NCBI RefSeq assembly: GCF_012911005.2
Contig: NZ_WTVS01000034.1
Span: 1 to 58,596, forward strand
From: Aromatoleum toluolicum
Lineage (GTDB): Bacteria > Pseudomonadota > Gammaproteobacteria > Burkholderiales > Rhodocyclaceae
DNA: 58,596 bases
Reading direction: 5' to 3'
In this document: positions 1,598 through 58,596 of the stretch, one piece after another
Position numbering within the stretch: position 1 is the stretch's first letter
How the letters are laid out: the number at the start of each line of letters is the position of its first letter
Program-made: the position numbers and the translations under genes
The notes under the pieces: model-generated
Seen by the model: the letters and a program-made list of their open reading frames with translations, nothing else
Told to the model about the DNA's origin: nothing
The model's database searches: none

Positions 1598-2761
1598 ATG
1601 CGCCGCCTGTGGCTGATCTTCGCGCAGGCCGTGACGGTGAGCGTCGCGGTCCTGTTTGTACTGAACACCCTGAAACCCGAATGGTTCAAGAACGCTGCCC
1701 CCGCTGCGGTCGTCTCCATCCTCGAGGCCCCCGAAACCGACTCCACGGCGCCCGCCCCGGCGCCGAATTCCTATGCCGATGCGGCCCGGCGCTCGATGCC
1801 GGCCGTCGTCCATATCTACACCGCCAAGGACATCGCGCGCCCGCGCCACCCCCTGCTCGACGACCCCATCTTCCGCCATTTCTTCGGTGACCGGCAGGGC
1901 AACGCACCGTCGCAGCGCGCATCGGGGCTGGGCTCGGGCGTCATCGCGAGCCCCGACGGACTGGTCCTGACCAACAACCACGTCATCGAGGGCGCGGACG
2001 AGATCGAGATCGCACTCAACGACGGGCGCAAGTTCCCCGCGCGCCTCGTCGGCCGCGACCCCGAGACCGATCTCGCAGTGCTCCGCCTGCAGGGCAACGG
2101 CAAGCTGCCGGCGATCGCCTTCGCGAAACAGGATGCGCTGCAGGTCGGCGACGTCGTCCTCGCCATCGGCAATCCCTTCGGCGTCGGCCAGACCGTAACG
2201 ATGGGCATCGTGTCGGCCCTCGGGCGCAGCCAGCTCGGCATCAACACCTTTGAAAACTACATCCAGACCGACGCGGCGATCAATCCGGGCAATTCGGGCG
2301 GCGCGCTGGTCGACAGCCAGGGCAACCTCGTCGGTATCAACACGGCGATCTATTCGCGCTCGGGCGGTTCGCTCGGCATCGGCTTCGCGATCCCTGCGTC
2401 GACCGCGCGCGACGTGCTCGAACAGATCATCGCGACCGGCCAGGTCACGCGCGGCTGGATCGGCGTCGAAATCCAGGAGATCACGCCCGAACTCGCCGAA
2501 TCCTTCGGCATTCGGGGCACCGAGGGCGCCCTCATCGCCGGAGTGTTGCGCGACAGCCCGGCCGAGCACGCCGGCATCCGCCCGGGAGACATCCTGATCG
2601 GCGTCGACGGCAAGCCGGTCCTCGACCCGAAGGGCATGCTGGAACTGGTCGCCGGCCTGATGCCGGGCCACAGCGCGAGTTTCCGCGTGCGCCGCGCCGA
2701 CAGCGAGATCGATCTGAAGGTGGAAATCGGGCGCCGTCCGGCCCCCTCCGTGCAGCGCTGA
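1598..2761 (+). CDS. Membrane-anchored S1C serine protease (DegS/AlgW type)
   Basis: 387 residues from the ATG at 1598, chosen because the protein then begins MRRLW followed by a hydrophobic anchor (about 3-21); an earlier in-frame start would add 25 polar residues. The trypsin-like domain carries His128 (TNNHVIEG), Asp158 (PETDLAVL) and Ser233 (NPGNSGG), all expected of an active protease. A single PDZ domain covers about 287-378. One PDZ plus an N-terminal anchor is the DegS/AlgW architecture, which in other bacteria senses misfolded outer-membrane proteins and starts sigma-E activation by cleaving RseA. No rseA or rpoE is in the window, so that role is inferred from the family. Confidence 0.88.
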   Translation: MRRLWLIFAQAVTVSVAVLFVLNTLKPEWFKNAAPAAVVSILEAPETDSTAPAPAPNSYADAARRSMPAVVHIYTAKDIARPRHPLLDDPIFRHFFGDRQGNAPSQRASGLGSGVIASPDGLVLTNNHVIEGADEIEIALNDGRKFPARLVGRDPETDLAVLRLQGNGKLPAIAFAKQDALQVGDVVLAIGNPFGVGQTVTMGIVSALGRSQLGINTFENYIQTDAAINPGNSGGALVDSQGNLVGINTAIYSRSGGSLGIGFAIPASTARDVLEQIIATGQVTRGWIGVEIQEITPELAESFGIRGTEGALIAGVLRDSPAEHAGIRPGDILIGVDGKPVLDPKGMLELVAGLMPGHSASFRVRRADSEIDLKVEIGRRPAPSVQR

Positions 2762-2766
2762 TCGCT

Positions 2767-2781
2767 AGCCCGCCGCGGGCT
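2767..2781. terminator. Hairpin between protease gene and tatC
   Basis: AGCCCG (2767-2772) pairs with CGGGCT (2776-2781) across a 3-nt loop. It lies between convergent genes and its last base overlaps the tatC stop codon. Confidence 0.4.
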
Positions 2782-3542
2782 TAGTTATTCTCGATGCGCT
2801 CGAGCGCTTCGTCGCCGCCGTCGGGCCGATCCTTGACGAGCAGGCGCGCGATGATCACACCCACCTCGTAGAGCAGGCACATCGGGATCGCCAGCAGCAA
2901 CTGCGACACCACGTCCGGAGGAGTGATGACCGCGGCGACGACGAACGCGCCGACGATCACATAGGGACGTGCCGCGGCCAGCTTCGCCACGCTGACCACG
3001 CCCGTCTTGGCGAGCAGGATCACCGCCACCGGCACCTCGAAGGTCAGACCGAAGGCGATGAACATCGTCATCACGAAGGACAGGTACTGCTCGATGTCAG
3101 GCGCCGGCGTGATGCTCTTCGGTGCGAACTCGGCGATGAACTTGAACACCGTCCCGAACACGAAGAAGTAGCAGAACGCCATCCCGAGCACGAACAGGAT
3201 CGTGCTGCCGAGCACGAGCGGCAGCCCCAGCCGCCTTTCGTGCGCGTACAGGCCGGGCGCGACGAAGGCCCAGGCCTGATAGAGGACGACCGGAAGCGCG
3301 ATCACGAAGGCCGCCATCATCGTCACCTTCACCGGCACGAAGAAGGGCGTGATCACGCCGGTCGCGATCATGTGCGTCCCCTCGGGAAGGGTCTGCATCA
3401 TCGGCAATGCCAGCAGATCGTAGACGTCGCCCGCCCACGGCATCAGGCACAGGAACACGACGAGTACGGCCAGCATCGCGCGCAACAGGCGGTCGCGCAG
3501 CTCGACGAGATGCGAAATGAAGGTTTCCTGCACAGCGCTCAT
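2781..3542 (-). CDS. tatC: Sec-independent (Tat) translocase subunit TatC
   Basis: A 253-residue polytopic inner-membrane protein with about six hydrophobic segments. The conserved N-terminal cytoplasmic segment FISHLVELRDRLLRAM (from residue 8) and the FGLTFEVPV motif of the later membrane region are present. TatC with TatB forms the receptor for twin-arginine signal peptides of folded exported proteins. The start overlaps the tatB stop by 4 bp (ATGA), so tatB and tatC are translationally coupled. It is the last gene of the hisB...tatC run. Confidence 0.97.
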   Translation of the reverse strand: MSAVQETFISHLVELRDRLLRAMLAVLVVFLCLMPWAGDVYDLLALPMMQTLPEGTHMIATGVITPFFVPVKVTMMAAFVIALPVVLYQAWAFVAPGLYAHERRLGLPLVLGSTILFVLGMAFCYFFVFGTVFKFIAEFAPKSITPAPDIEQYLSFVMTMFIAFGLTFEVPVAVILLAKTGVVSVAKLAAARPYVIVGAFVVAAVITPPDVVSQLLLAIPMCLLYEVGVIIARLLVKDRPDGGDEALERIENN

Positions 3543-44824: not shown

Positions 44825-45853
44825 TCACCGCCGCAGGCGTCCGGCCCAGAACGCCGCGACGTCCAGCATGCGCCGCGAGAAGGCCCATTCGTTGTCGAAC
44901 CACAGCATCAGGTTGATCAGGCGCTCGCCGCTGGCGTGAGTCTGGCTGCCGTCGACGATGGCCGAGAAGCCGTTGTGGTTGAAGTCCACCGACGCGTGCG
45001 GGCCGTCCGAGTACGCGAGCACGCCGTGGCGGTCCTCCTCGGCGACGCGGCGCATGAGGCGGTTGATGGTCTCGACCGTGGCGTTGCGCCGGAGCGTCAC
45101 CGTCAGGTCGATGGCCGAGACGTTCGGTACCGGGACGCGGATCGCCTTCGCCACGATGCGCCCTTCGAGCGCCGGCAGCAGACGGGAAATGCCCTTCGCC
45201 AGGCCGGTCTGTACCGGGATCATCGACTGCATCGCCGAGCGGGTCATGCGCAGGTCGGTGGCGTGGTAGCCGTCGATCACGGGCTGGTCGTTCATCACCG
45301 AGTGCAGCGTCGTCGTCAGCGCATGCTCGATGCCGAACGTCTGTTCGAGGATCGCGAGGATGGGCACGACGGCGTTGGTGGTGCAGGAGGCGGCCGAGAC
45401 GATGCGTTCGCTGCCGTCGAGCGTGTCGTGGTTCATCCCGAACACGACGGTGCGATCGACGTCGGCGGCGCTGTGGCCGGGGTGCGACAGCAGCAGACGC
45501 GGACAGCCGGCGTCGAGGAAGGCTTCGAGTTCGTGCCGGTAACGGTAGCGCCCCGAAGCTTCGACGAGGAGGTCGGCATCGAGGGCCCGCCAGTCGACGC
45601 CGTCGGGCGTTGTCGCATGGGTGACCGCGATGTCCTGGTCGTCGATGTGCAGGCGACCGTCACGGATGCCGACGGTGCCGGGGAAACAGCCGTGGATCGA
45701 ATCGAAGCGGGTGAGATAGGCCATGCTCTCGATGTCCGCCGGTTCGTTGATGGCGACGATGGACAGCGAATTGCGCAGCGGCGATTCGTGGAGGGCGCGC
45801 AGGAAGCAGCGGCCGATGCGGCCGTAGCCGTTGAGTACGATGCGGAAGCTCAT
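44825..45853 (-). CDS. epd: Erythrose-4-phosphate dehydrogenase-like protein (GAPDH superfamily)
   Basis: 342 residues. Rossmann start FRIVLNGYGRIGRCFLRAL, catalytic Cys in SAASCTTNAVVPIL, and HSVMNDQPVIDGYH, which matches Epd proteins rather than standard GAPDH. Later, VDFNHNGFSAIVDGSQTH and LWFDNEWAFSRRMLD complete the domain. Epd oxidises erythrose 4-phosphate to 4-phosphoerythronate for pyridoxal phosphate synthesis. It stands alone here, so another aldehyde substrate is possible. Confidence 0.82.
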   Translation of the reverse strand: MSFRIVLNGYGRIGRCFLRALHESPLRNSLSIVAINEPADIESMAYLTRFDSIHGCFPGTVGIRDGRLHIDDQDIAVTHATTPDGVDWRALDADLLVEASGRYRYRHELEAFLDAGCPRLLLSHPGHSAADVDRTVVFGMNHDTLDGSERIVSAASCTTNAVVPILAILEQTFGIEHALTTTLHSVMNDQPVIDGYHATDLRMTRSAMQSMIPVQTGLAKGISRLLPALEGRIVAKAIRVPVPNVSAIDLTVTLRRNATVETINRLMRRVAEEDRHGVLAYSDGPHASVDFNHNGFSAIVDGSQTHASGERLINLMLWFDNEWAFSRRMLDVAAFWAGRLRR

Positions 45854-46622: not shown

Positions 46623-47402
46623 TCAGGCCCCAAATTCCCTCAGCCACGCCAGGCCGTCCTCCGTCCTGCCACGGGGCCGGTATTCGCAGCCGATCCAACC
46701 GGCGTAACCGAGTTCGTCCAGCAGGCGGAACAGGTAACGGTAGTCGAGTTCGCCGTCGTCCGGTTCGTTGCGCGCCGGCACGCCCGCGATCTGTATGTGA
46801 CCGACGTGACGGAGGTAGCGGCGCAGCTTGGTGGTGATGTCGCCTTCCATGATCTGCGCGTGATAGAGGTCCATCTGCACCAGCAGGTTGGGCGCGCCGA
46901 CTTCCTCGCGGATCGCGTGCGCCTCGGCCTGCGTGCTGAGGAAGTAGCCGGGCATGTCGCGCGTGTTGATCGGCTCGATCAGCACCGTGACGCCATGCTG
47001 CGCAGCCGCGCGAGCCGCGTGCCGCAGGTTGTCGACGTACAGGGCGCGCTGCATGCCGGGCGCCGCTCCGGGCACGACGAGGCCGGCCATCACGTGCAGG
47101 CGCGGGGTTCCCAGCGCCTGCGCATACTCCAGGGCACGGACGACGCCCGCACGGAATTCCGCCTCGCGCCCCGGCAGCGCTGCAAGGCCGCGCTCGCCCG
47201 CGGCCCAGTCGCCCGGCGGCATGTTGAAGAGGACGTTAACGAGCCCGTGCGCCTTCAGCCACCCGGCGACCTCCGCCGGCGCGTGCTCGTACGGGAACAG
47301 GAATTCGACGGCCCTGAACCCGGCTTGCGCCGCCGCGGCGAAACGCAGCGGAAACGGGTGCTCGTTGAACATCATCGTCAGGTTGGCGGCAAACTTGGGC
47401 AT
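46623..47402 (-). CDS. hyi: Hydroxypyruvate isomerase
   Basis: A 259-residue TIM barrel of the AP endonuclease 2/xylose-isomerase-like fold. [17 protein letters not shown] is the Hyi N-terminus; [15 protein letters not shown] and [15 protein letters not shown] carry metal-binding Glu, Asp and His; [15 protein letters not shown] and GCEYRPRG finish the site. It interconverts hydroxypyruvate and tartronate semialdehyde. The usual glyoxylate carboligase and reductase genes are not adjacent. Confidence 0.9.
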
Positions 47403-47649
47403 CGCGGCTTCCTCGCGGGACGGCGGAATGAGGTGAGAGCGGGTACCGGGGCGAGCGCCCCGCGGCCCGGCGATTGTCGCGGACTTCCCCGCACCGCGCC
47501 AGCATCGGCGTCGCAGCCCTGCCGCCACCCGCGTCATGACAGGCACCTTTCCGCGGCGCATAATCGGGCGATGCCAATCCGGTACCCGCAGCGCGCCCCG
47601 GCGGCGGCCGGTACCGCATACCAGTTCCAAAGTCGCACGGAGAACACCG

Positions 47650-51075: not shown

Positions 51076-51627
51076 TCACTGATGCCAAGCGTTGAAGCGC
51101 GCTTCCGCCTGCTCGAACAGCACCTTCACCTTCTCCACTTCCCACGCCTGCTCGGCCAGCGTCTCGTGGTCCCACAGGCTGCGCGGCTGCGGCGGGGCGA
51201 AGAAATCGCCGCCGTACACGTGGATCGCGCAACTCATCTTGCCGATCGGGTTGAGCACCGAATGGATCGCGTCGCGTTCGAGCGCGGTGACGTCGCCCAC
51301 GCCCAGCGAGCTTGCGCCGATCGCCTCGATGCTGCCCGCGGTCCGCCGCCAGAACACGTTGTCCTCACGCCCGGCGTAGATCCCGACCACCGAGAACATC
51401 TGGTGGTTGTGCGGCATCAGGCTCATGCACGGCGCCCATACGAAGTTGATGATCGTGAGTTCCGGCGAACGGTACAGCGCGTTGATGCCCGCGTGCTTCG
51501 GTTCACCGAGTTGCGCGACGATCGCCGCGCCGTCCGAGACCGCCTCGGCCACCAGTTCGCGCACGGCTGCCGGCCCTTCGGCCACGGCCTGCGTGCAGTC
51601 CTGGATGAATCGCTCCTTGTCGAACAT
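51076..51627 (-). CDS. Cupin-type thiol dioxygenase-like protein (cysteine dioxygenase family)
   Basis: 183 residues from the ATG at 51627. The iron-binding triad of cysteine/3-mercaptopropionate dioxygenases fits His73 and His75 (LMPHNHQMFSVVGIYAG) and His122 (ERDAIHSVLNP), with AIHVYGGDFF at the end of the barrel. Such enzymes oxidise thiols to sulfinates. Alternative: another small-molecule cupin dioxygenase. The 170-bp gap to the LysR gene shows no other feature. Confidence 0.78.
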   Translation of the reverse strand: MFDKERFIQDCTQAVAEGPAAVRELVAEAVSDGAAIVAQLGEPKHAGINALYRSPELTIINFVWAPCMSLMPHNHQMFSVVGIYAGREDNVFWRRTAGSIEAIGASSLGVGDVTALERDAIHSVLNPIGKMSCAIHVYGGDFFAPPQPRSLWDHETLAEQAWEVEKVKVLFEQAEARFNAWHQ

Positions 51628-51798
51628 GATCCATGCTCCCAACCTCGATCCACGTTCCCGCGGCGACGGGCGGCCGCCTGAAGGCCCGGCCGCCTCGCCC
51701 CCTGAATCCGCGCCTTCCCTTGCCATCGGGAACCTCCTCATCCGGGCAGTCCCCCATTCATTAATAGGACACGCCAGCGGGCCGGGCCAGACATCCGC

Positions 51799-52698
51799 TC
51801 ACGCGGACGCCTTCTCCAGTTCGCCGAAGAGCCAGTCCTGGAAATTGCGGATCTTGGGCAGCTCGGCGCGCGCTTTCAGCAGATTGAAGGTGTAGCCCTG
51901 CACCTTCGGCCCGTCGAGCCCGAGCGGCGCGACGAGCCGTCCGGTTTCGAGCTCGCGCTGCGCGAGCAGCAGGCTTTCCAGACACACGCCGAGGCCGTCC
52001 ACGGCCGCGCTGAGCGCCATGAAGGAGCGGTCGAAGCGCAGGCCGCGCGAGATGTCGAGCTTGACCTTGCGGTGCTGGCGCATCCAGTCGCGCCAGCCGA
52101 CGAGGCACACCTCGCTGTGGATCAGCGTGTGGTGGACCAAATCGTCGGGCGTGCGGATCGGGTGCGGGCCGTTCATCAACGCCGGCGAGCACATCGGCAC
52201 GATGGTCTCGGGCGGGAAGGTCAGCACCATCGTGCCGGCCGGCTGCAGCCGCTTCATGCCGTAACGGATATCGATATCCACGGTCTCCGCGACCAGATCG
52301 ACGGTATCGGTCGACGCGTTGAGGCGCACGTCGACGTCGGGGTTGAGCGAGCTGAAGCGCGCGAGGCGCGGCATCAGCCACTGCGTCGCGAAGCTGGGCG
52401 TCGCATGCACCGTGAGGATGTCGCTCTTTTCCGTGCGCCCGAGTTCGCGCGTCGCGAGGTCGATGCGCGCGAAGGCCGCCGACACCTCCTCCGCGTAGCG
52501 CCGGCCCGAGTCCGTCAGCACCACCGCGCGATGCACGCGATGGAAGAGCTGCACCCCGAATTGGTCCTCCAGCAGCTTGATCTGGTGGCTCACCGCCGAG
52601 GGGGTCACGAACAGTTCTTCTGCTGCAAGCGCGAAAGACGACAGCCGCGCGGCGGCCTCGAACGCTTGTATGGCCTTGAGAGGGACTCGATGCTGCAT
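51799..52698 (-). CDS. LysR-family transcriptional regulator (GcvA-like)
   Basis: 299 residues from the ATG at 52698; a GTG at 52725 would add nine residues. The N-terminal winged helix is LKAIQAFEAAARLSSFALAA followed by ELFVTPSAVSHQIKLLEDQ. The effector-binding domain follows. It is divergent from the transketolase-TRAP genes across 200 bp and is their likely regulator. The 52699-52745 patch (TATAAGGCTAATTTATT) is AT-rich and may hold both promoters. Confidence 0.92.
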   Translation of the reverse strand: MQHRVPLKAIQAFEAAARLSSFALAAEELFVTPSAVSHQIKLLEDQFGVQLFHRVHRAVVLTDSGRRYAEEVSAAFARIDLATRELGRTEKSDILTVHATPSFATQWLMPRLARFSSLNPDVDVRLNASTDTVDLVAETVDIDIRYGMKRLQPAGTMVLTFPPETIVPMCSPALMNGPHPIRTPDDLVHHTLIHSEVCLVGWRDWMRQHRKVKLDISRGLRFDRSFMALSAAVDGLGVCLESLLLAQRELETGRLVAPLGLDGPKVQGYTFNLLKARAELPKIRNFQDWLFGELEKASA

Positions 52699-52898
52699 CG
52701 CAAAACCCACATGAATTGAATTCACCTATAAGGCTAATTTATTCGTTTGAGCGACACCGATCAAGGGAATACGCTTTCTCCCACTCGCCGGACGTTGTGC
52801 AGACAGCCCGAGCGAAGGCGGAGAGCCCCCTCTCCTGACAGAGAGCAACGATTCGTCCCAACGCCCCCAGGGCAGCGGACCCAACCAAGGAGAACTGC
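52699..52898. promoter_or_regulatory. Divergent control region, LysR gene / transketolase operon
   Basis: A 200-bp gap. The AT-rich core CTATAAGGCTAATTTATTCG (about 52727-52746) contrasts with the GC-rich surroundings and is the most likely location of overlapping LysR-type sites and promoters. The transketolase ribosome site is GGAG, just before the GTG. Confidence 0.45.
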
Positions 52899-53744
52899 GT
52901 GGATACCAGCGTTACTGCCCCCCGCGCCAAGATCGCCGAGCACGCCTACCGCATCCGCCGCAACGCGCTGCGGATGGGCGAAGTTCAAGGCCAGGGCTAC
53001 ATCGCCCAGGCGCTGGACATCGCCGACGTGCTGGCGACGGCCTACTTTCATGCGATGCGCTACCGGCCGGAAGACCCGGCGTGGGAAGAGCGCGACCGCT
53101 TCCTGCTGTCGAACGGCCACTACGCGATCGCGCTGTATGCGGCGCTGATCGAGGCCGGCATCGTCCCCGAGGAAGAACTGGAGACCTACGGCAGCGACGA
53201 CAGCCGCCTGCCGATGTCCGGCATGGCGAGCTACACGCCGGGCATGGAAATGTCGGGCGGCTCGCTCGGCCAGGGTCTGACGATCGCCGTCGGCCGCGGC
53301 CTGGGCCTGAAGCGTAAGGGCTCGAAGTCCTTCGTGTATACGCTGTTCTCGGACGGCGAACTCGACGAGGGCGCCGTGTGGGAAGGCCTGATGTCGGCCG
53401 CACACCACAAGCTCGACAACCTGATCGCGATCGTCGACGTCAATAACCAGCAGGCCGACGGCCCCTCGTCGCAGGTGATGGCCTTCGAGCCGCTCACCGA
53501 GAAGATGCGGGCCTTCGGCTGGTTCACCCAGCGCATCGACGGCAACGACCTAGACGCCGTGATCGCCGCCTTCGACGCCGCGCGCAACCACCCCGGCCCC
53601 GAGCCCCGCATGATCATCGCCGACACCCTGATGGGCTGCGGCGTGCCCTTCCTCGAAGCGCGCGAGAAGAACCACTTCATCCGCGTCGAGCCGAACGAGT
53701 GGCAGCTGGCCCTCGAAGCGCTGGACGCCGGGAGGAAAGCATGA
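52899..53744 (+). CDS. Transketolase, N-terminal (TPP-binding) subunit
   Basis: 281 residues with a GTG start at 52899. The TPP/Mg motif is FSDGELDEGAVWEGLMSA followed by VDVNNQQADG; an early GHYAIALYAAL and MSGGSLGQGLTIAVG contact cofactor and substrate. It covers only the N-terminal half of a transketolase; the C-terminal half is the next gene, overlapping by 4 bp (ATGA). Split transketolases are used by several catabolic pathways instead of the one-piece pentose-phosphate enzyme. Confidence 0.93.
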   Translation: MDTSVTAPRAKIAEHAYRIRRNALRMGEVQGQGYIAQALDIADVLATAYFHAMRYRPEDPAWEERDRFLLSNGHYAIALYAALIEAGIVPEEELETYGSDDSRLPMSGMASYTPGMEMSGGSLGQGLTIAVGRGLGLKRKGSKSFVYTLFSDGELDEGAVWEGLMSAAHHKLDNLIAIVDVNNQQADGPSSQVMAFEPLTEKMRAFGWFTQRIDGNDLDAVIAAFDAARNHPGPEPRMIIADTLMGCGVPFLEAREKNHFIRVEPNEWQLALEALDAGRKA

Positions 53745-54742
53745 GCACCGTTACCGCACAAAAGCCCAAGCTGAAGACCTCGGCGATGATCGCCTCAATC
53801 GCCGGCGAGGGCCAGCGCACCCAGGCCGCGCCCTTCGGCCACGCGCTCGTGAAGCTCGCCGCAGAGCGGCCCGAGATCGTCGGCATGACCGCCGACCTCG
53901 CGAAATACACCGACCTGCACATCTTCGCGCAGGCCTACCCCGAGCGCTTCTACCAGATGGGGATGGCCGAGCAGTTGCTGATGGGCGCCGCGGCCGGCTT
54001 CGCACATGAAGGCGCGATGCCCTTCGTGACGACCTACGCGGTGTTCGCGACGCGCCGCGCCTACGACTTCATGCACCAGACGATCGCCGAGGACGACCTC
54101 AACGTGAAGATCGCCTGCGCGCTGCCCGGCCTCACGACCGGCTACGGCCCGAGCCACCAGGCGGCCGAGGACCTCGCGCTGATGCGCGCGATGCCCGGCA
54201 TGACCGTGATCGACCCGTGCGACGCACTCGACATCGAACAGATGGTGCCGGCGGTGGCCGAACACAAGGGGCCGGTGTACATGCGCCTCTTGCGCGGCCA
54301 GGTGCCGCTGGTGCTCGACGAGTACGACTACAAGTTCGAGCTCGGCAAGGCCAAGCTCGTGCGCGACGGCCGCGACGTGCTGGTGATCTCGTCCGGGATC
54401 ATGACGATGCGTGCGCTGGAAGTCGCCAAGGCGCTCGCGGCCGACCGCGTCGATGTCGGCGTGCTGCACGTGCCGACGATCAAGCCGCTCGACACCTCGA
54501 CGATCCTGCGCGAGGCAGGCCGCTCCGGGCGCCTGGTCGTCGTCGCCGAGAACCACACGACGATCGGCGGACTCGGCGAAGCGATCGGCACGACGCTGCT
54601 GCGCGCCGGCGTGACCCCGCAGTTCCGCCAGATCGCGCTGCCCGACGCCTTCCTCGACGCCGGCGCGCTGCCGACGCTGCATGACCGCTACGGCATCTCG
54701 ACCGAAGCGATGAGCACAACGATCAAGGGCTGGCTGTCGTAA
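53741..54742 (+). CDS. Transketolase, C-terminal (pyrimidine-binding) subunit
   Basis: 333 residues from the ATG at 53741. The pyrimidine-domain motif with the catalytic Glu is MGMAEQLLMGAAAGFAHEG; TTGYGPSHQAAEDLALMRAM and a C-terminal transketolase_C domain (VISSGIMTMRALEVAKAL) follow. It should form an alpha2beta2 enzyme with the preceding gene. Its donor and acceptor substrates are not determinable, but the operon context suggests a sugar acid or related ketose. Confidence 0.93.
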   Translation: MSTVTAQKPKLKTSAMIASIAGEGQRTQAAPFGHALVKLAAERPEIVGMTADLAKYTDLHIFAQAYPERFYQMGMAEQLLMGAAAGFAHEGAMPFVTTYAVFATRRAYDFMHQTIAEDDLNVKIACALPGLTTGYGPSHQAAEDLALMRAMPGMTVIDPCDALDIEQMVPAVAEHKGPVYMRLLRGQVPLVLDEYDYKFELGKAKLVRDGRDVLVISSGIMTMRALEVAKALAADRVDVGVLHVPTIKPLDTSTILREAGRSGRLVVVAENHTTIGGLGEAIGTTLLRAGVTPQFRQIALPDAFLDAGALPTLHDRYGISTEAMSTTIKGWLS

Positions 54743-54792
54743 CGGCCGCCTGAACCGACTCCAAATCAACTGCAATTCAAAGGACCACTAAC

Positions 54793-55554
54793 ATGTCGCA
54801 ATCCCAACTCCTCGAAGGCAAGGTCGCCGTCATCACCGGCGGCGCCGGTCTCAACGGCCTCGGCTTCGCCACCGCCCGCATGCTCGCCGCACAGGGCGCC
54901 CGCATCGCGATCCTCGACCTCGAGCAGGCGAACCCCGCCGGCGCCGCCGCCGAGCTCGGCCCGCAGCACATCGGCCTCGTCGCCAACGTCACCGACAAGG
55001 CTTCGTGCGACGCCGCTGCCGCCGAGATCCTCAAGCAGCTCGGCCGCATCGACGTGCTGGTGAACAACGCCGGCATCACCCAGCCGCGCAAGACGTTGGA
55101 CATCACCGGCGCCGACTACGACGCGGTGCTCGACGTGAGCCTGCGCGGCACGCTCTACATGTCGCAAGCCGTGATCCCGGCGATGCAGAAGCAGAAGAAC
55201 GGCTCGATCGTGTGCATCTCGTCGGTCTCCGCACAGCGCGGCGGCGGCATCCTCGGCGGCCCGCACTATTCGGCCGCCAAGGCAGGCGTATTGGGCTTGG
55301 CCAAGGCGATGGCGCGCGAATACGGCGCCGACAACATTCGTGTCAATTGCATCACCCCGGGCCTGATCGCCACCGACATCAACAAGGGCAAGATCCCCGA
55401 GGACCGCCGCGCCGCGATCCTCGAGTCGATCCCGCTGGGCTGCATCGGCGAACCCAACGACGTGGCCGGCTGCGTCGTGTTCCTTGCGAGCGAGTTGTCG
55501 AAGTACTGCACCGGCATCACGCTCGACGTCAACGGGGGCATGCTCATTCACTGA
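54793..55554 (+). CDS. Short-chain dehydrogenase/reductase
   Basis: 253 residues. The cofactor loop is ITGGAGLNGLGFATA (TGxxxGxG type), followed by VNNAGITQPRK, the catalytic Ser in VCISSVSAQRGG, Tyr/Lys in YSAAKAG, and INPG-like CITPGLIATDI. Asp at the end of the second strand (ILDLEQ) favours NAD(H). It lies between transketolase and TRAP genes and probably oxidises the imported polyol or sugar acid to a keto form. Confidence 0.9.
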   Translation: MSQSQLLEGKVAVITGGAGLNGLGFATARMLAAQGARIAILDLEQANPAGAAAELGPQHIGLVANVTDKASCDAAAAEILKQLGRIDVLVNNAGITQPRKTLDITGADYDAVLDVSLRGTLYMSQAVIPAMQKQKNGSIVCISSVSAQRGGGILGGPHYSAAKAGVLGLAKAMAREYGADNIRVNCITPGLIATDINKGKIPEDRRAAILESIPLGCIGEPNDVAGCVVFLASELSKYCTGITLDVNGGMLIH

Positions 55555-55634
55555 TCCCATACCCCGCAGCCCCAGGCTCGCGGGGTCCAAGCAGTCCAGG
55601 TGCCGCACAGACGGCTACCTACGAGGAGACACAC

Positions 55635-56621
55635 ATGAACCGCAGGACTTTCAAACTCGCCACTTTCGCGCTCGCCGCCGCCCTCGCCTTCCCGGCCATG
55701 GCACAGACCGTCAAACTCTCGCTCGGCCACGGCGCCGCGCCCGGCAACCCGCGCCACGAGGCATCGGTGAAGTTCGCCGAGCTCGTCAAGGAAAAGACCG
55801 CCGGCCGCATCGAGGTGCAGGTCTCGCCTTCGGCCCAGTTGGGTGACGACGCCGCGATGGTCACGCAGCTGCGCACCGGCGCGCTGGACCTCTCGGCCAA
55901 CTCGCAGGGTGCGGTCTCGACCGCCGTGCCGGAGTATGCCGCCTTCGGCATGCCCTTCCTGTTCGCCTCGCTGCCGCAGGCCTGGAAGCTGCTCGACGGC
56001 CCCCTGGGCCAGGAGCTCGCGCAGAAGTCCGCCGACAAGGGCCTGATCGTGCTCGGCTACTGGGACAACGGCGTGCGCCACATGTCCAACAGCAAGCATC
56101 CGCTGCTCAAGCCCGAGGACCTCAAGGGCCTGAAGATGCGCACCCCGCCCGACGCGGTGACGGTCGACATCATGCAGGCGCTCGGCGCCGAGGCGCAGCA
56201 GATCAAGTTCGCCGAACTGTACGTGGCGCTGCAGCAGGGCGTCGTCGACGGACAGGAGAATCCGCTGATGAACATCCACGCGTCCAAGCTCTACGAGGTG
56301 CAGAAGTACGTCACGCTGACCGGCCACAAGTACGAGATGACGCCCTTCCTGATGAGCAAGCGCTCGTGGGACAGGCTCAACGACGCCGACCGCAAGGCGA
56401 TCACCGAGGCGGCGAAGGAAGCCACCGCGCTGCAGCGCAAGCTGTCGCAAGAGGCAGACGAGAAGCTCGTCGCGGATCTCAAGGCCAAGGGCGTGCGCGT
56501 CGACACGGTCGACAAGGCGGCCTTCGAAAAGGCCACCGCGCCGGTCGATGACAAGTGGAGCTCCGGCCCGATCGGCCCCTTCGTCAAGAAAGTGATCACC
56601 GCCGCGCGCAGCGGCAGCTGA
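55635..56621 (+). CDS. TRAP transporter substrate-binding protein DctP
   Basis: 328 residues. A signal peptide (LATFALAAALAFPAMA) is followed by a DctP fold: SLGHGAAPGNPRHEASVKF, GLKMRTPPDAVTVD with the conserved carboxylate-binding Arg169, and QGVVDGQENPLMNI. The conserved Arg implies a carboxylate-bearing ligand, known from the family. The ribosome site is GAGGAG. It starts the import part of the operon. Confidence 0.93.
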   Translation: MNRRTFKLATFALAAALAFPAMAQTVKLSLGHGAAPGNPRHEASVKFAELVKEKTAGRIEVQVSPSAQLGDDAAMVTQLRTGALDLSANSQGAVSTAVPEYAAFGMPFLFASLPQAWKLLDGPLGQELAQKSADKGLIVLGYWDNGVRHMSNSKHPLLKPEDLKGLKMRTPPDAVTVDIMQALGAEAQQIKFAELYVALQQGVVDGQENPLMNIHASKLYEVQKYVTLTGHKYEMTPFLMSKRSWDRLNDADRKAITEAAKEATALQRKLSQEADEKLVADLKAKGVRVDTVDKAAFEKATAPVDDKWSSGPIGPFVKKVITAARSGS

Positions 56622-56701
56622 GCCCCATCCCTCCCCCAACCTTCGGCTCGCGCCGCCCTCCTGGCGGCGAGGGGCCGGGGGACTCGAGACAGGAGTCCAC
56701 G

Positions 56702-57223
56702 ATGAATCGCATAGAGCGCGGCATCGTTCTCACATGCCAGGCGGTGCTGTGGGTCACCACCATCATCATCTTTTCCATTCTGTGCGCCAACACCATCCTG
56801 CGCTACAGCACCGGCGCCAGCCTGCAATGGGCCGCCGAACTGCCCGAGCTGCTGTTCCCGTGGATGGTCACCGCGGGCATCGTGCTCGGCGCGGCGCACG
56901 GCGCGCACATCACCACCTCCTTCCTGGTGGAGACGCTGCCGGCCACCGCCCGGCGCGTCATCGCAGTGATCGTGTGGCTGTGCGTCGCCGGGCTGTACTT
57001 CACGCTCGCCGGCGCCACCTGGAACATGCTCGAGATCGTTCATGACGAGCGCAGCCCGATCCTGCAGGTGCCCGGCTCGGTGACCTACGGCTGCGTCATG
57101 GTCGGCATGCTGATGCTCGCCGTCCTCGCGCTGCACTCGGCCTGGAACGCCTGGGCGCAAGGCGCCCGCAGCGGCAACGGCAACGCCCCCGTTCCCGAAA
57201 CTCACGTGGTGACGACGACATGA
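56702..57223 (+). CDS. TRAP transporter small permease DctQ
   Basis: 173 residues, four hydrophobic segments, with the DctQ motif YSTGASLQWAAELPELLFPW. It joins DctM in the inner membrane. The 80-bp gap from dctP contains a hairpin (CGCCGCC/GGCGGCG near 56650-56673) that could lower expression relative to DctP. It overlaps dctM by 4 bp. Confidence 0.92.
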   Translation: MNRIERGIVLTCQAVLWVTTIIIFSILCANTILRYSTGASLQWAAELPELLFPWMVTAGIVLGAAHGAHITTSFLVETLPATARRVIAVIVWLCVAGLYFTLAGATWNMLEIVHDERSPILQVPGSVTYGCVMVGMLMLAVLALHSAWNAWAQGARSGNGNAPVPETHVVTTT

Positions 57224-58479
57224 GCGCCCTGATCCTGATGGTATTCGGCATCGCCGCGGTCGCCGCGATGCCCATCGCCCACGCCCTGCTCGCTGCCTCG
57301 ATGGCGGCCGCAGCCACCTCGGACCGCGTCCCGCTCGATCTGATCGTGCAGCAGATGGTCGCGCAGGTTCAGAGCTTCCCGCTGATCGCGATCCCGTTCT
57401 TCATGCTGACGGGCACGCTGATGATGGGCGGCAAGCTCGGCGAATCGCTGATCGGCGTGCTGTCGACGCTTATCGGCCGCTTCCACGGCGGTCCCGGCCA
57501 GGTCGGCGTGCTGTCCTCGACGATCTTCGGCGGCGTCTCGGGCTCGGCGGTCGCCGACGCCTCGGCGATCGGCTCGCTGCTGATCCCCTGGCAGAAGCGC
57601 CTCGGCTACCCGGCGGAGTTCTCCGCGGCGACGCTCGCGGCGGCGGCGACGATCGACATCCTGATCCCGCCGTCGATCCCGATGATCCTCTTCGCGCTGA
57701 GCGCCAACGCCTCGATCGCGGCGCTGTTCGTCGCCGGCATCCTGCCGGGCCTCCTGATGTGCGGCGGCTTCATGGCCGTGTGCTGGTGGGTCGGCAAGCG
57801 CCGCAACTTCCCGCGCGAACTGCAGCCGATCAACTGGGCGGTGTTCCGTCGCCAGCTCGCCTACGCGTCGCCGGCGCTGATCATGCCGGTGCTGGTCGTC
57901 GTGTTCCTGCGCTTCGGCATCGCGACGCCGACCGAGGTCAGCGTGCTGTCGACGCTGTACGCGGCGTTCGTCTCCGCCGTCATCTACCGCGACTTGGGGC
58001 TCAAGCGCCTGCACCACGCGATCGTCGAAGCGGGACTCGCCACCGGCGTCGTGCTGCTCGTGATCATGGCGTCCGCCGCGGTGGGCTGGCTCCTCACCTA
58101 CGACCACATGCCCGACGGTGTGGTGGGCTGGGCCAAGGCCAACCTCGAATCCGGCTGGACGGTGATCGCGCTGATGAACGTCCTGATGCTGGTCTGCGGC
58201 ATGTTCATCGACCTGCCCGCGGCCGTGCTGCTGCTCACCCCGGTGTTCCTGCCGCTCGCCCAGAGCATCGGCATGGATCCGGTACAGCTCGGGATCATGA
58301 TGACGGTGAACCTGGCGATCGGCCTCTACACCCCGCCGGTCGGCACGACACTGTTCATCACGAGTTCGGTCGCCAAAGTGAAGGTCGGCCAGACGGTGCG
58401 CGAGCTCGTGCCCTTCTACGCGGTGGCCTTCGGCATCCTGATGCTGGTCTCGTACGTGCCGGCCTCGATCCTGCGGTAA
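57220..58479 (+). CDS. TRAP transporter large permease DctM
   Basis: A 419-residue polytopic protein. DctM hallmarks: FPLIAIPFFMLTGTLM, FGGVSGSAVADASAIGSLL, and IDILIPPSIPMILFALSAN, then IGLYTPPVGTTLFITSSV. It uses the Na+ or H+ gradient to import the DctP ligand. The start overlaps dctQ (ATGA). It is the last gene of the module. Confidence 0.95.
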   Translation: MSALILMVFGIAAVAAMPIAHALLAASMAAAATSDRVPLDLIVQQMVAQVQSFPLIAIPFFMLTGTLMMGGKLGESLIGVLSTLIGRFHGGPGQVGVLSSTIFGGVSGSAVADASAIGSLLIPWQKRLGYPAEFSAATLAAAATIDILIPPSIPMILFALSANASIAALFVAGILPGLLMCGGFMAVCWWVGKRRNFPRELQPINWAVFRRQLAYASPALIMPVLVVVFLRFGIATPTEVSVLSTLYAAFVSAVIYRDLGLKRLHHAIVEAGLATGVVLLVIMASAAVGWLLTYDHMPDGVVGWAKANLESGWTVIALMNVLMLVCGMFIDLPAAVLLLTPVFLPLAQSIGMDPVQLGIMMTVNLAIGLYTPPVGTTLFITSSVAKVKVGQTVRELVPFYAVAFGILMLVSYVPASILR

Positions 58480-58522
58480 GCCTCGTCCTTCCCTTCGTCA
58501 TCACACGAGCGTCTTAGCAGGT

Positions 58523-58545
58523 TCCTCCCCCTTCAAGGGGGAGGA
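58523..58545. repeat. Perfect inverted repeat after dctM
   Basis: TCCTCCCCCTT (58523-58533) and AAGGGGGAGGA (58535-58545) around one base, followed by GAGGGGGATGGG. It could fold as a terminator stem. The C/G-rich wording resembles dispersed intergenic repeats of related genomes, and a similar stretch (CCCATCCCTCCCCCAACC) follows dctP at about 56624. Confidence 0.55.
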
Positions 58546-58596
58546 CAGGAGGGGGATGGGTTTCAACGGAAGTGCCCGCCCCCTCAAACCCTGTCT

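Follow-up and report, generated by a model that had tools for sequence, protein, structure and literature searches.

We analysed a stretch of Aromatoleum toluolicum DNA, here called the window, which is the complete 58596-bp contig C217 of a 289-contig assembly, and focused on the gene set at 51799-58479 close to its right-hand end. An initial annotation had described a LysR gene divergent from a two-subunit (split) transketolase (TK), a short-chain dehydrogenase/reductase (SDR) and a three-part TRAP importer. Pfam and NCBIfam profile searches bore this out: all seven genes lie where they had been placed and belong to known families, with LysR on the minus strand and TK-N, TK-C, SDR, DctP, DctQ and DctM following in that order on the plus strand. 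The features are as follows.

51799-52725, minus strand: LysR-type regulator, GcvA subfamily (Pfam HTH_1 and LysR_substrate; NCBIfam GcvA 314.3 bits, cut-off 288)
52726-52898, no strand: divergent intergenic region of 173 bp, read from the sequence; presumed promoter/operator
52899-53744, plus strand: TK N-chain, binding thiamine diphosphate (ThDP) (Pfam Transketolase_N, E 3.6e-35, 122 bits, cut-off 22)
53741-54742, plus strand: TK C-chain (Transket_pyr, E 1.8e-33, 116 bits, cut-off 27; Transketolase_C, E 1.4e-25, 90 bits, cut-off 25.9)
54793-55554, plus strand: classical SDR (Pfam adh_short_C2, 217 bits)
55635-56621, plus strand: TRAP solute-binding protein DctP, 328 aa (Pfam, E 1e-89; TIGR00787 306 bits, cut-off 175)
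56702-57223, plus strand: TRAP small permease DctQ (Pfam DctQ, E 9.9e-26)
57220-58479, plus strand: TRAP large permease DctM (Pfam DctM, E 5.1e-111)
58506-58591, no strand: dispersed repeat at the contig end (window positions 58400-58596 match 42 times in the own genome)

Overlaps of 4 bp join TK-N to TK-C and DctQ to DctM, the former with the C-chain start taken as the ATG at 53741 from its start codon context; a longer GTG frame opens at 53699. The three transketolase superfamily domains all score above their Pfam cut-offs, and on the NCBIfam transketolase equivalog the N-chain and the C-chain, each about half length, reach 222 and 234 bits against a whole-protein cut-off of 488. The SDR has the SDR domain, NNAG at 91 and YSAAK at 159 (Tyr159-x3-Lys163) expected of a classical member, and Asp42 after beta-2 points to an NAD-type enzyme. 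The DctP, DctQ and DctM models are all above cut-off. Arg169 of DctP, which the initial annotation had singled out as binding carboxylate, is present when the protein starts at the ATG at 55635, as is a second arginine, Arg148.

The window ends 117 bp past DctM. The last 197 bp have 42 matches in the own genome, counting themselves, several of them at most 150 bp from contig starts, so this dispersed repeat probably fragments the assembly and interrupted it ahead of the remaining operon genes. As the window is a whole contig, the operon is cut off at DctM. In two near relatives, genome G016 (locus L121) and Azoarcus sp. Aa7 (L041; L126 is apparently the same genome), a full-length TK and a D-2-hydroxyacid dehydrogenase directly follow DctM. 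Another contig of the own genome, C252, opens with a full-length TK at 58-2034 (93% identity to L041) and a D-2-hydroxyacid dehydrogenase at 2060-3022 (96%), and from the near relatives we infer that C252 continues the C217 operon. We therefore rejected the idea that the pathway consists only of the listed genes. In its original form the proposal of a short, complete import-oxidise-cleave route lacks support: both the relatives and C252 add enzymes. The companion claim, that kinase, isomerase and aldolase are absent, in part reflects where the contig stops, yet it holds for the two genes on C252, which add none of these.

We compared the genome neighbourhoods of split TKs at 129 loci (86 from genome scans, 19 from plasmids and 24 further), with the C-chain above 45% identity in 128; the 80 loci drawn from a named genome collection are the best 80 of at least 575 confirmed C-chain matches there. 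Counts refer to the 107 well-flanked loci, those in which TK-C is preceded by 6 kb or more and followed by 7 kb or more of sequence, include up to three duplicate genomes and leave aside L154 (TK-C 44%). Neighbours were called within 8 kb at identities of at least 33% for LysR, 50% for SDR, 38% for TRAP and 40% for major facilitator superfamily (MFS) importers. TK-N was found in all 107 loci, LysR in 102 and the SDR in 100; the importer is of the TRAP type in 55 and of the MFS type in 41. Less constant are a full-length TK (31), a D-2-hydroxyacid dehydrogenase (28), a threonate-dehydrogenase-like enzyme (20), a lactonase-like amidohydrolase (8) and a dihydroxyacetone (Dha)-type kinase (3). All 31 loci with the full-length TK have a TRAP importer, one with an MFS match as well, and 27 of them have the D-2-hydroxyacid dehydrogenase.

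Copies of the gene set occur across Proteobacteria, and one lies on an Arthrobacter plasmid with an SDR of 42% identity; this recurrence argues that the arrangement is not due to chance. Of 60 relatives searched for the C-chain, 5, out of 16 in the same genus, have it at 95% identity or more, and the remaining 55 reach 37% or less at best. Wider draws found it in 1 of 368 other genomes of the class (E<=1e-70) and in 23 of 397 other genomes of the phylum (E<=1e-90). Of 72,556 plasmid records, 193 carry it (E<=1e-60), Pantoea (49), Rhizobium (34) and Bradyrhizobium (15) among them. Carriers thus number hundreds of records and include plant symbionts, soil bacteria, Klebsiella and Acinetobacter. 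Database annotation of the copies is generic only (transketolase, SDR, transporter). The earlier statement that the operon matches no described pathway stands for the open-licence literature, in which we found no publication assigning it; most subscription papers lie outside that search.

The closest solved structure to the SDR, PDB 7krk/7krm (323.6 bits), was deposited as a 3-oxoacyl-ACP reductase (FabG); the window SDR misses the NCBIfam FabG cut-offs (224.5 against 296 bits and 218.8 against 332). The entry, whose source organism is presumably Acinetobacter baumannii, is nearly identical (513 bits over 249 aa) to the SDR at L139:5009-5758, which belongs to an A. baumannii record's module ordered LysR|SDR-MFS-TKN-TKC. 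The deposited name is likely a misannotation. The main texts of two papers on A. baumannii FabG-like SDRs do not contain the word transketolase.

To characterise the split TK, 127 N-chains and 129 C-chains, the window's included, were aligned with E. coli TktA and with the split TK of PDB 6yak/6yaj. The residues that bind ThDP and metal or act in catalysis (H66, D155, N185, H261, E411 and H473) are intact in 127/127 N-chains and 129/129 C-chains, and R520 is likewise kept throughout. The rest of the pocket is remodelled. Every N-chain has H26 replaced by Tyr, R91 by Gly and H100 by Ser, and every C-chain has S385 replaced by Tyr, F434 by Tyr, H461 by Leu and E468 by Tyr. D469 is deleted; one alignment places a Tyr there and the other a gap, and Asp is kept in neither. 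R358 is never Arg (Ser in 55, Ala in 40, including the window, Pro in 28, others in 5 and a gap in 1). Ordinary TKs orient the phosphate with the motif RSFHR (R358-S385-F434-H461-R520), and the sulfofructose TK has RAFDR (PMC11659671). In the split TK the motif is mostly [A/S/P]-Y-Y-L-R, with only R520 kept. The canonical TK of the own genome, on contig C219, retains RSFHR, D469 and H100, as do 25/25 ordinary TKs that share 52-55% identity with the companion full-length TK.

Judged from these alignments, the pocket lacks most of the residues that hold a sugar phosphate, and the substrates probably carry no phosphate, the donor being an unphosphorylated sugar acid; that it is probably acidic follows from the importers, which belong to acid-importer classes. 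The suggestion of an unphosphorylated or non-classical donor thus gains support from the replacement of four of the five motif residues in every sequence counted. A glyceraldehyde-3-phosphate acceptor, also suggested for the split TK, becomes less likely since the phosphate site appears lost. Engineering of TktA bears on the same positions, where changes bring in unphosphorylated, carboxylated or deoxy substrates. Activity on unphosphorylated 5-keto-D-gluconate, from which tartaric semialdehyde is left, is 55.3% higher in the R358I/H461S/R520Q variant (PMC12016104), and S385Y/D469T/R520Q takes 3-formylbenzoate, an aldehyde with a carboxyl group (PMC10787763). According to a review, one or more of the substrates must be unphosphorylated for a TK to act on 5-ketogluconate (PMC11066805). 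The natural enzyme is altered at these same positions, S385Y itself being natural here, which supports an unphosphorylated donor.

The alternative that the split TK is an ordinary phosphate-using enzyme, duplicated and recruited to the operon for pentose-phosphate support as in the sulfo-TK pathway, draws on its clear homology to the characterised Carboxydothermus split TK and on the sulfo-TK SqwGH, which is also split and hands its C2 unit to glyceraldehyde-3-phosphate (PMC11659671). We regard it as quite improbable: RSFHR is replaced at four of five positions here and at two of five in the sulfo-TK, the genome already has a canonical TK, and the core of the module includes neither isomerase nor kinase.

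The loss of H100 raises a different question. TktA H100L, combined with D469T, takes pyruvate, which lacks the ketol hydroxyl, as donor (PMC10787763), and the same position is Ser in 127/127 N-chains here. The SDR could then produce a methyl-ketone hydroxy acid, CH3-CO-C(OH)-R, starting for example from a hydroxy acid that is deoxy or branched, and the TK would cleave this ketone through acetyl/hydroxyethyl-ThDP, like an acyloin or acetolactate synthase in reverse and without hydroxyacetyl transfer. The C-chain also matches DXS models, at 185 and 135 bits, in keeping with such chemistry. The closest solved relative of the DctP that goes with fused TRAP importers is 4oan (428 bits), which we take to have been modelled with 2-acetolactate. 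A review names 2-acetolactate among new TRAP ligands, leaving the entry unnamed (PMC5812351). On the other side, the companion TK, an ordinary TK by TIGR00232, keeps H100 in 36/36 sequences, and the kinases of the kinase-bearing variants belong to the dihydroxyacetone family, which acts on hydroxy-ketones. DXS retains His at the H26 position, and with H26 lost as well the pocket here is not DXS-like. Cleavage by acetyl transfer therefore seems unlikely to us.

Relative to L041, the window's LysR, TK and SDR are 98% identical, and its DctP, DctQ and DctM only 57, 30 and 56%; relative to L121 the corresponding values are 96-99% for regulator, TK and SDR and 71, 48 and 66% for the importer. The closest TRAP found is that of L195, from a different family of the order (74, 69 and 80% for DctP, DctQ and DctM). 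Sequence comparison thus points to exchange of the TRAP cassette (55635-58479), with regulator, TK and SDR staying in place. A quick tree was built from 123 joined TK sequences, of which 109 could be labelled by importer (three-part TRAP 35, fused TRAP 31, MFS 43); on it the importer class must have changed at least 14 times, with 30 of 119 inner branches poorly supported. The tree omits the duplicate genomes L123, L125 and L126 and rows without a TK-N match above 50%, which the neighbourhood and residue counts retain wherever they pass the thresholds. The two TRAP types and the MFS type accordingly appear interchangeable around constant enzymes.

DctP spaces Arg148 and Arg169 by 21 residues, equal to the two conserved arginines R156 and R177 of the isethionate binding protein IseP (PMC11668362). 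The TRAP binding-protein structures compared in the IseP paper hold pantoate or erythronate, mostly co-purified, and 4P47 is open (PMC11668362). Among solved structures, the window DctP is most similar to five, PDB 4p47, 4p9k, 4pdh, 7bbr and 4pdd. We take the ligands of these individual entries to be sugar acids, erythronate or pantoate. The MFS importer falls short of both classes that it resembles (D-galactonate 318 bits, cut-off 395; 4-hydroxyphenylacetate 300 bits, cut-off 615) and is best described as an acid importer whose specificity is uncertain.

What the module gains in other genera varies: the threonate-dehydrogenase-like enzyme, genes resembling lactonases, or a TIM-barrel isomerase together with a kinase of the dihydroxyacetone kinase family. 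A sugar ABC importer and an amidohydrolase with distant similarity to L-fuconolactonase accompany the TRAP module in Rhizobium, Sinorhizobium, Agrobacterium and Aminobacter, and an SMP-30/gluconolactonase-family gene adjoins the module in Bradyrhizobium L144 and in L182. Judging by family, lactonase-type neighbours and an MFS importer resembling the D-galactonate class would fit sugar acids. Two closer assignments were rejected: the amidohydrolase as L-fuconolactonase (107 bits against a cut-off of 400, so only a lactonase-like lead), and the HIBADH-like genes as true L-threonate dehydrogenases (308 and 306 bits, near but below the cut-off of 350).

The companion full-length TK has its own signature. 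By family it is an ordinary TK, above the TIGR00232 cut-off; as a description of its pocket we rejected this, as its motif is IPYHR in 35 of 36 sequences (Asn for Ile in the remaining one) and unlike the RSFHR of 25/25 ordinary TKs. D469 is Asn in 36/36. In a phylum draw of 398 genomes, apparently the same for both counts, the five genomes with a companion-TK relative at 60% identity or more all fall among the 24 with the split TK (hypergeometric 5e-7, or 9e-6 excluding the own genome); the 60% line was set after a gap was seen, the next matches listed being at 56% or less. Genomes G705 and G730 carry this relative about 1 and 3 Mb from the split TK by contig coordinates (both about 1 Mb should the chromosomes be circular), and since the two genes are at least 1 Mb apart there, the co-occurrence does not reflect linkage alone.

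Two TKs in one operon could also be accounted for by a relay in which the split TK passes C2 from the keto acid to a small aldehyde without phosphate, either glycolaldehyde or formaldehyde. The L-erythrulose or dihydroxyacetone so formed would be consumed by the companion TK (erythrulose plus aldose phosphate) or, in other genera, by a Dha-family kinase and a TIM-barrel isomerase. A kinase of that family and a xylose-isomerase-like TIM barrel join the module at 4 of 129 loci (L146, L148, L197 and L202, the pair in L197 assigned by similarity to L148 only), none showing the companion TK, and an engineered strain couples TktA on 5-ketogluconate to a formaldehyde acceptor and glycerone kinase (PMC12016104). 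The non-overlap of kinase and companion TK rests, however, on small numbers (3 against 31 of 107 loci), most MFS-type loci have neither, and the own genome gave no Dak1 match. The last result, with the count of four loci, also led us to reject dihydroxyacetone kinase as a universal next step. We consider the relay improbable, while noting that it is compatible in part with the reading we prefer.

That reading, towards which we lean somewhat, is that the seven genes form the 5' part of a LysR-controlled operon for import, NAD-dependent oxidation and ThDP-dependent cleavage of an unphosphorylated keto-hydroxy acid. From the families involved, the TRAP importer (MFS in other species) would bring in an organic acid of the sugar-acid type, and the NAD-type SDR would oxidise a hydroxyl to a ketone, giving the unphosphorylated keto-hydroxy acid. 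The split TK with ThDP would then attack the ketone and cut the adjacent C-C bond, releasing an aldehydic acid and passing C2 to an acceptor, and the two enzymes whose genes open C252, the companion TK and the D-2-hydroxyacid dehydrogenase, would process the products. A fuller version, which we hold tentatively and at somewhat less than an even chance, is a widespread kinase-free route in which the SDR makes the keto acid from an imported aldonate, the phosphate-blind split TK ([A/S/P]YYLR, H100S) removes C2 and the IPYHR TK, itself partly phosphate-blind, returns the carbon to central metabolism; in such a route the transketolase relay would replace phosphorylation and aldol cleavage, with importers swapped around a constant core.

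Two aldonate schemes would fit equally well, and a C6 acid is also possible. In the first, a C4 aldonate would leave glyoxylate, reducible by the D-2-hydroxyacid dehydrogenase, and only genes that were seen are needed. In the second, a 4-keto-pentonate would yield C2 and tartronate semialdehyde, the latter passing through glycerate to hydroxypyruvate, which the companion TK would split into C2 and CO2; this would suit the relatives that also carry a threonate-/tartronate-semialdehyde-type reductase.

Several observations weigh against our reading. The joint between C217 and C252 is drawn from near relatives. Seven of the 107 loci have no close SDR, some having one at 28-42% identity, and 12 have no importer at the thresholds used, although an MFS is annotated in one of these, L141, and Pfam identifies one in another, L189. 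Given how varied the importers are, the substrate may not be the same in every species. For the C5 scheme, the best match to the threonate-dehydrogenase-like reductase in the own genome has 36% identity, against 58-100% in loci carrying the gene near the TK at high identity; with no close copy, the scheme would here need one of the paralogues. The TktA variant improved for 5-ketogluconate also lost R520 (PMC12016104), which the split TK keeps. The companion TKs of G705 and G730 have RAFHR with D469N instead of IPYHR, which occurs in only 3 of the 5 genomes with relatives at 60% or more. Many of the new pocket residues are Tyr or Leu and would suit an aromatic or hydrophobic substrate too. Finally, the loss of H100 means, by analogy with TktA, that the C2 unit may be acetyl instead of hydroxyacetyl.

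Some neighbouring arrangements deserve mention in their own right. At L189:8320-12439 and L152:8213-12340, a HIBADH-like dehydrogenase (37% to L044) occupies the place of the SDR and is followed by an MFS gene (by Pfam in L189, a related open reading frame in L152). A Paracoccaceae plasmid (L154:3532-11829) has the 44% TK-C relative beside two annotated L-xylulose/3-keto-L-gulonate kinases, in a cluster that also holds a Drp35-type lactonase, GldA and KduD and is perhaps a kinase-bearing cousin pathway. In Pararhizobium (L148:1-3435) an annotated otnK/aldolase/TIM-barrel cluster of the tetronate type, with a threonate-dehydrogenase-like gene, adjoins the module. Within the window, the open reading frame next to the LysR gene (51076-51741) matched neither Pfam nor NCBIfam models at E<=0.001. 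A xylose-isomerase-like TIM barrel at 46623-47405 (PF01261, 177.8 bits), hydroxypyruvate-isomerase-like by eye, lies about 4.4 kb from LysR, and a glyceraldehyde-3-phosphate dehydrogenase family gene at 44825-45853 (PF00044/PF02800) lies about 6 kb from the module.

If our reading is true, a conserved gene set would gain a function, there would be a sugar-acid route without a kinase in its core, and nature would have an enzyme that cleaves unphosphorylated keto acids, a reaction so far pursued via engineered E. coli TktA. Among known systems, the split TK of Carboxydothermus hydrogenoformans (6yaj/6yak; PMC7661550) has two chains with the same domain split. Its chains are the closest solved ones (C-chain to 6yaj, E 2.5e-68; N-chain to 6yak, E 4.2e-62), and the module enzyme shares its ThDP-binding and catalytic residues. 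6yak/6yaj keep H26, H100, S385, H461 and D469, all five of which are gone from each module sequence counted; R358 lies outside the printed 6yaj fragment and is left out of this comparison. SqwGH is likewise a split TK in a catabolic cluster with an altered phosphate-orienting motif (compared here by its published form, RAFDR), and its C2 donor is a ketose with a non-phosphate anion at the far end, but the described sulfo-TK route employs isomerases and a reductase (PMC11659671). The engineered TktA variants are artificial and single-chain, with mostly different replacing residues, and the natural split TK keeps R520. Partners of SqwGH are sulfoquinovose isomerase and SE isomerase; the pathway of apulose-4-phosphate transketolase has apiose isomerase and apulose kinase as partners. 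The parts of the module all belong to known families and their arrangement is common in databases; by comparison with these systems, what is new is TK-based catabolism with a remodelled, apparently phosphate-blind enzyme.

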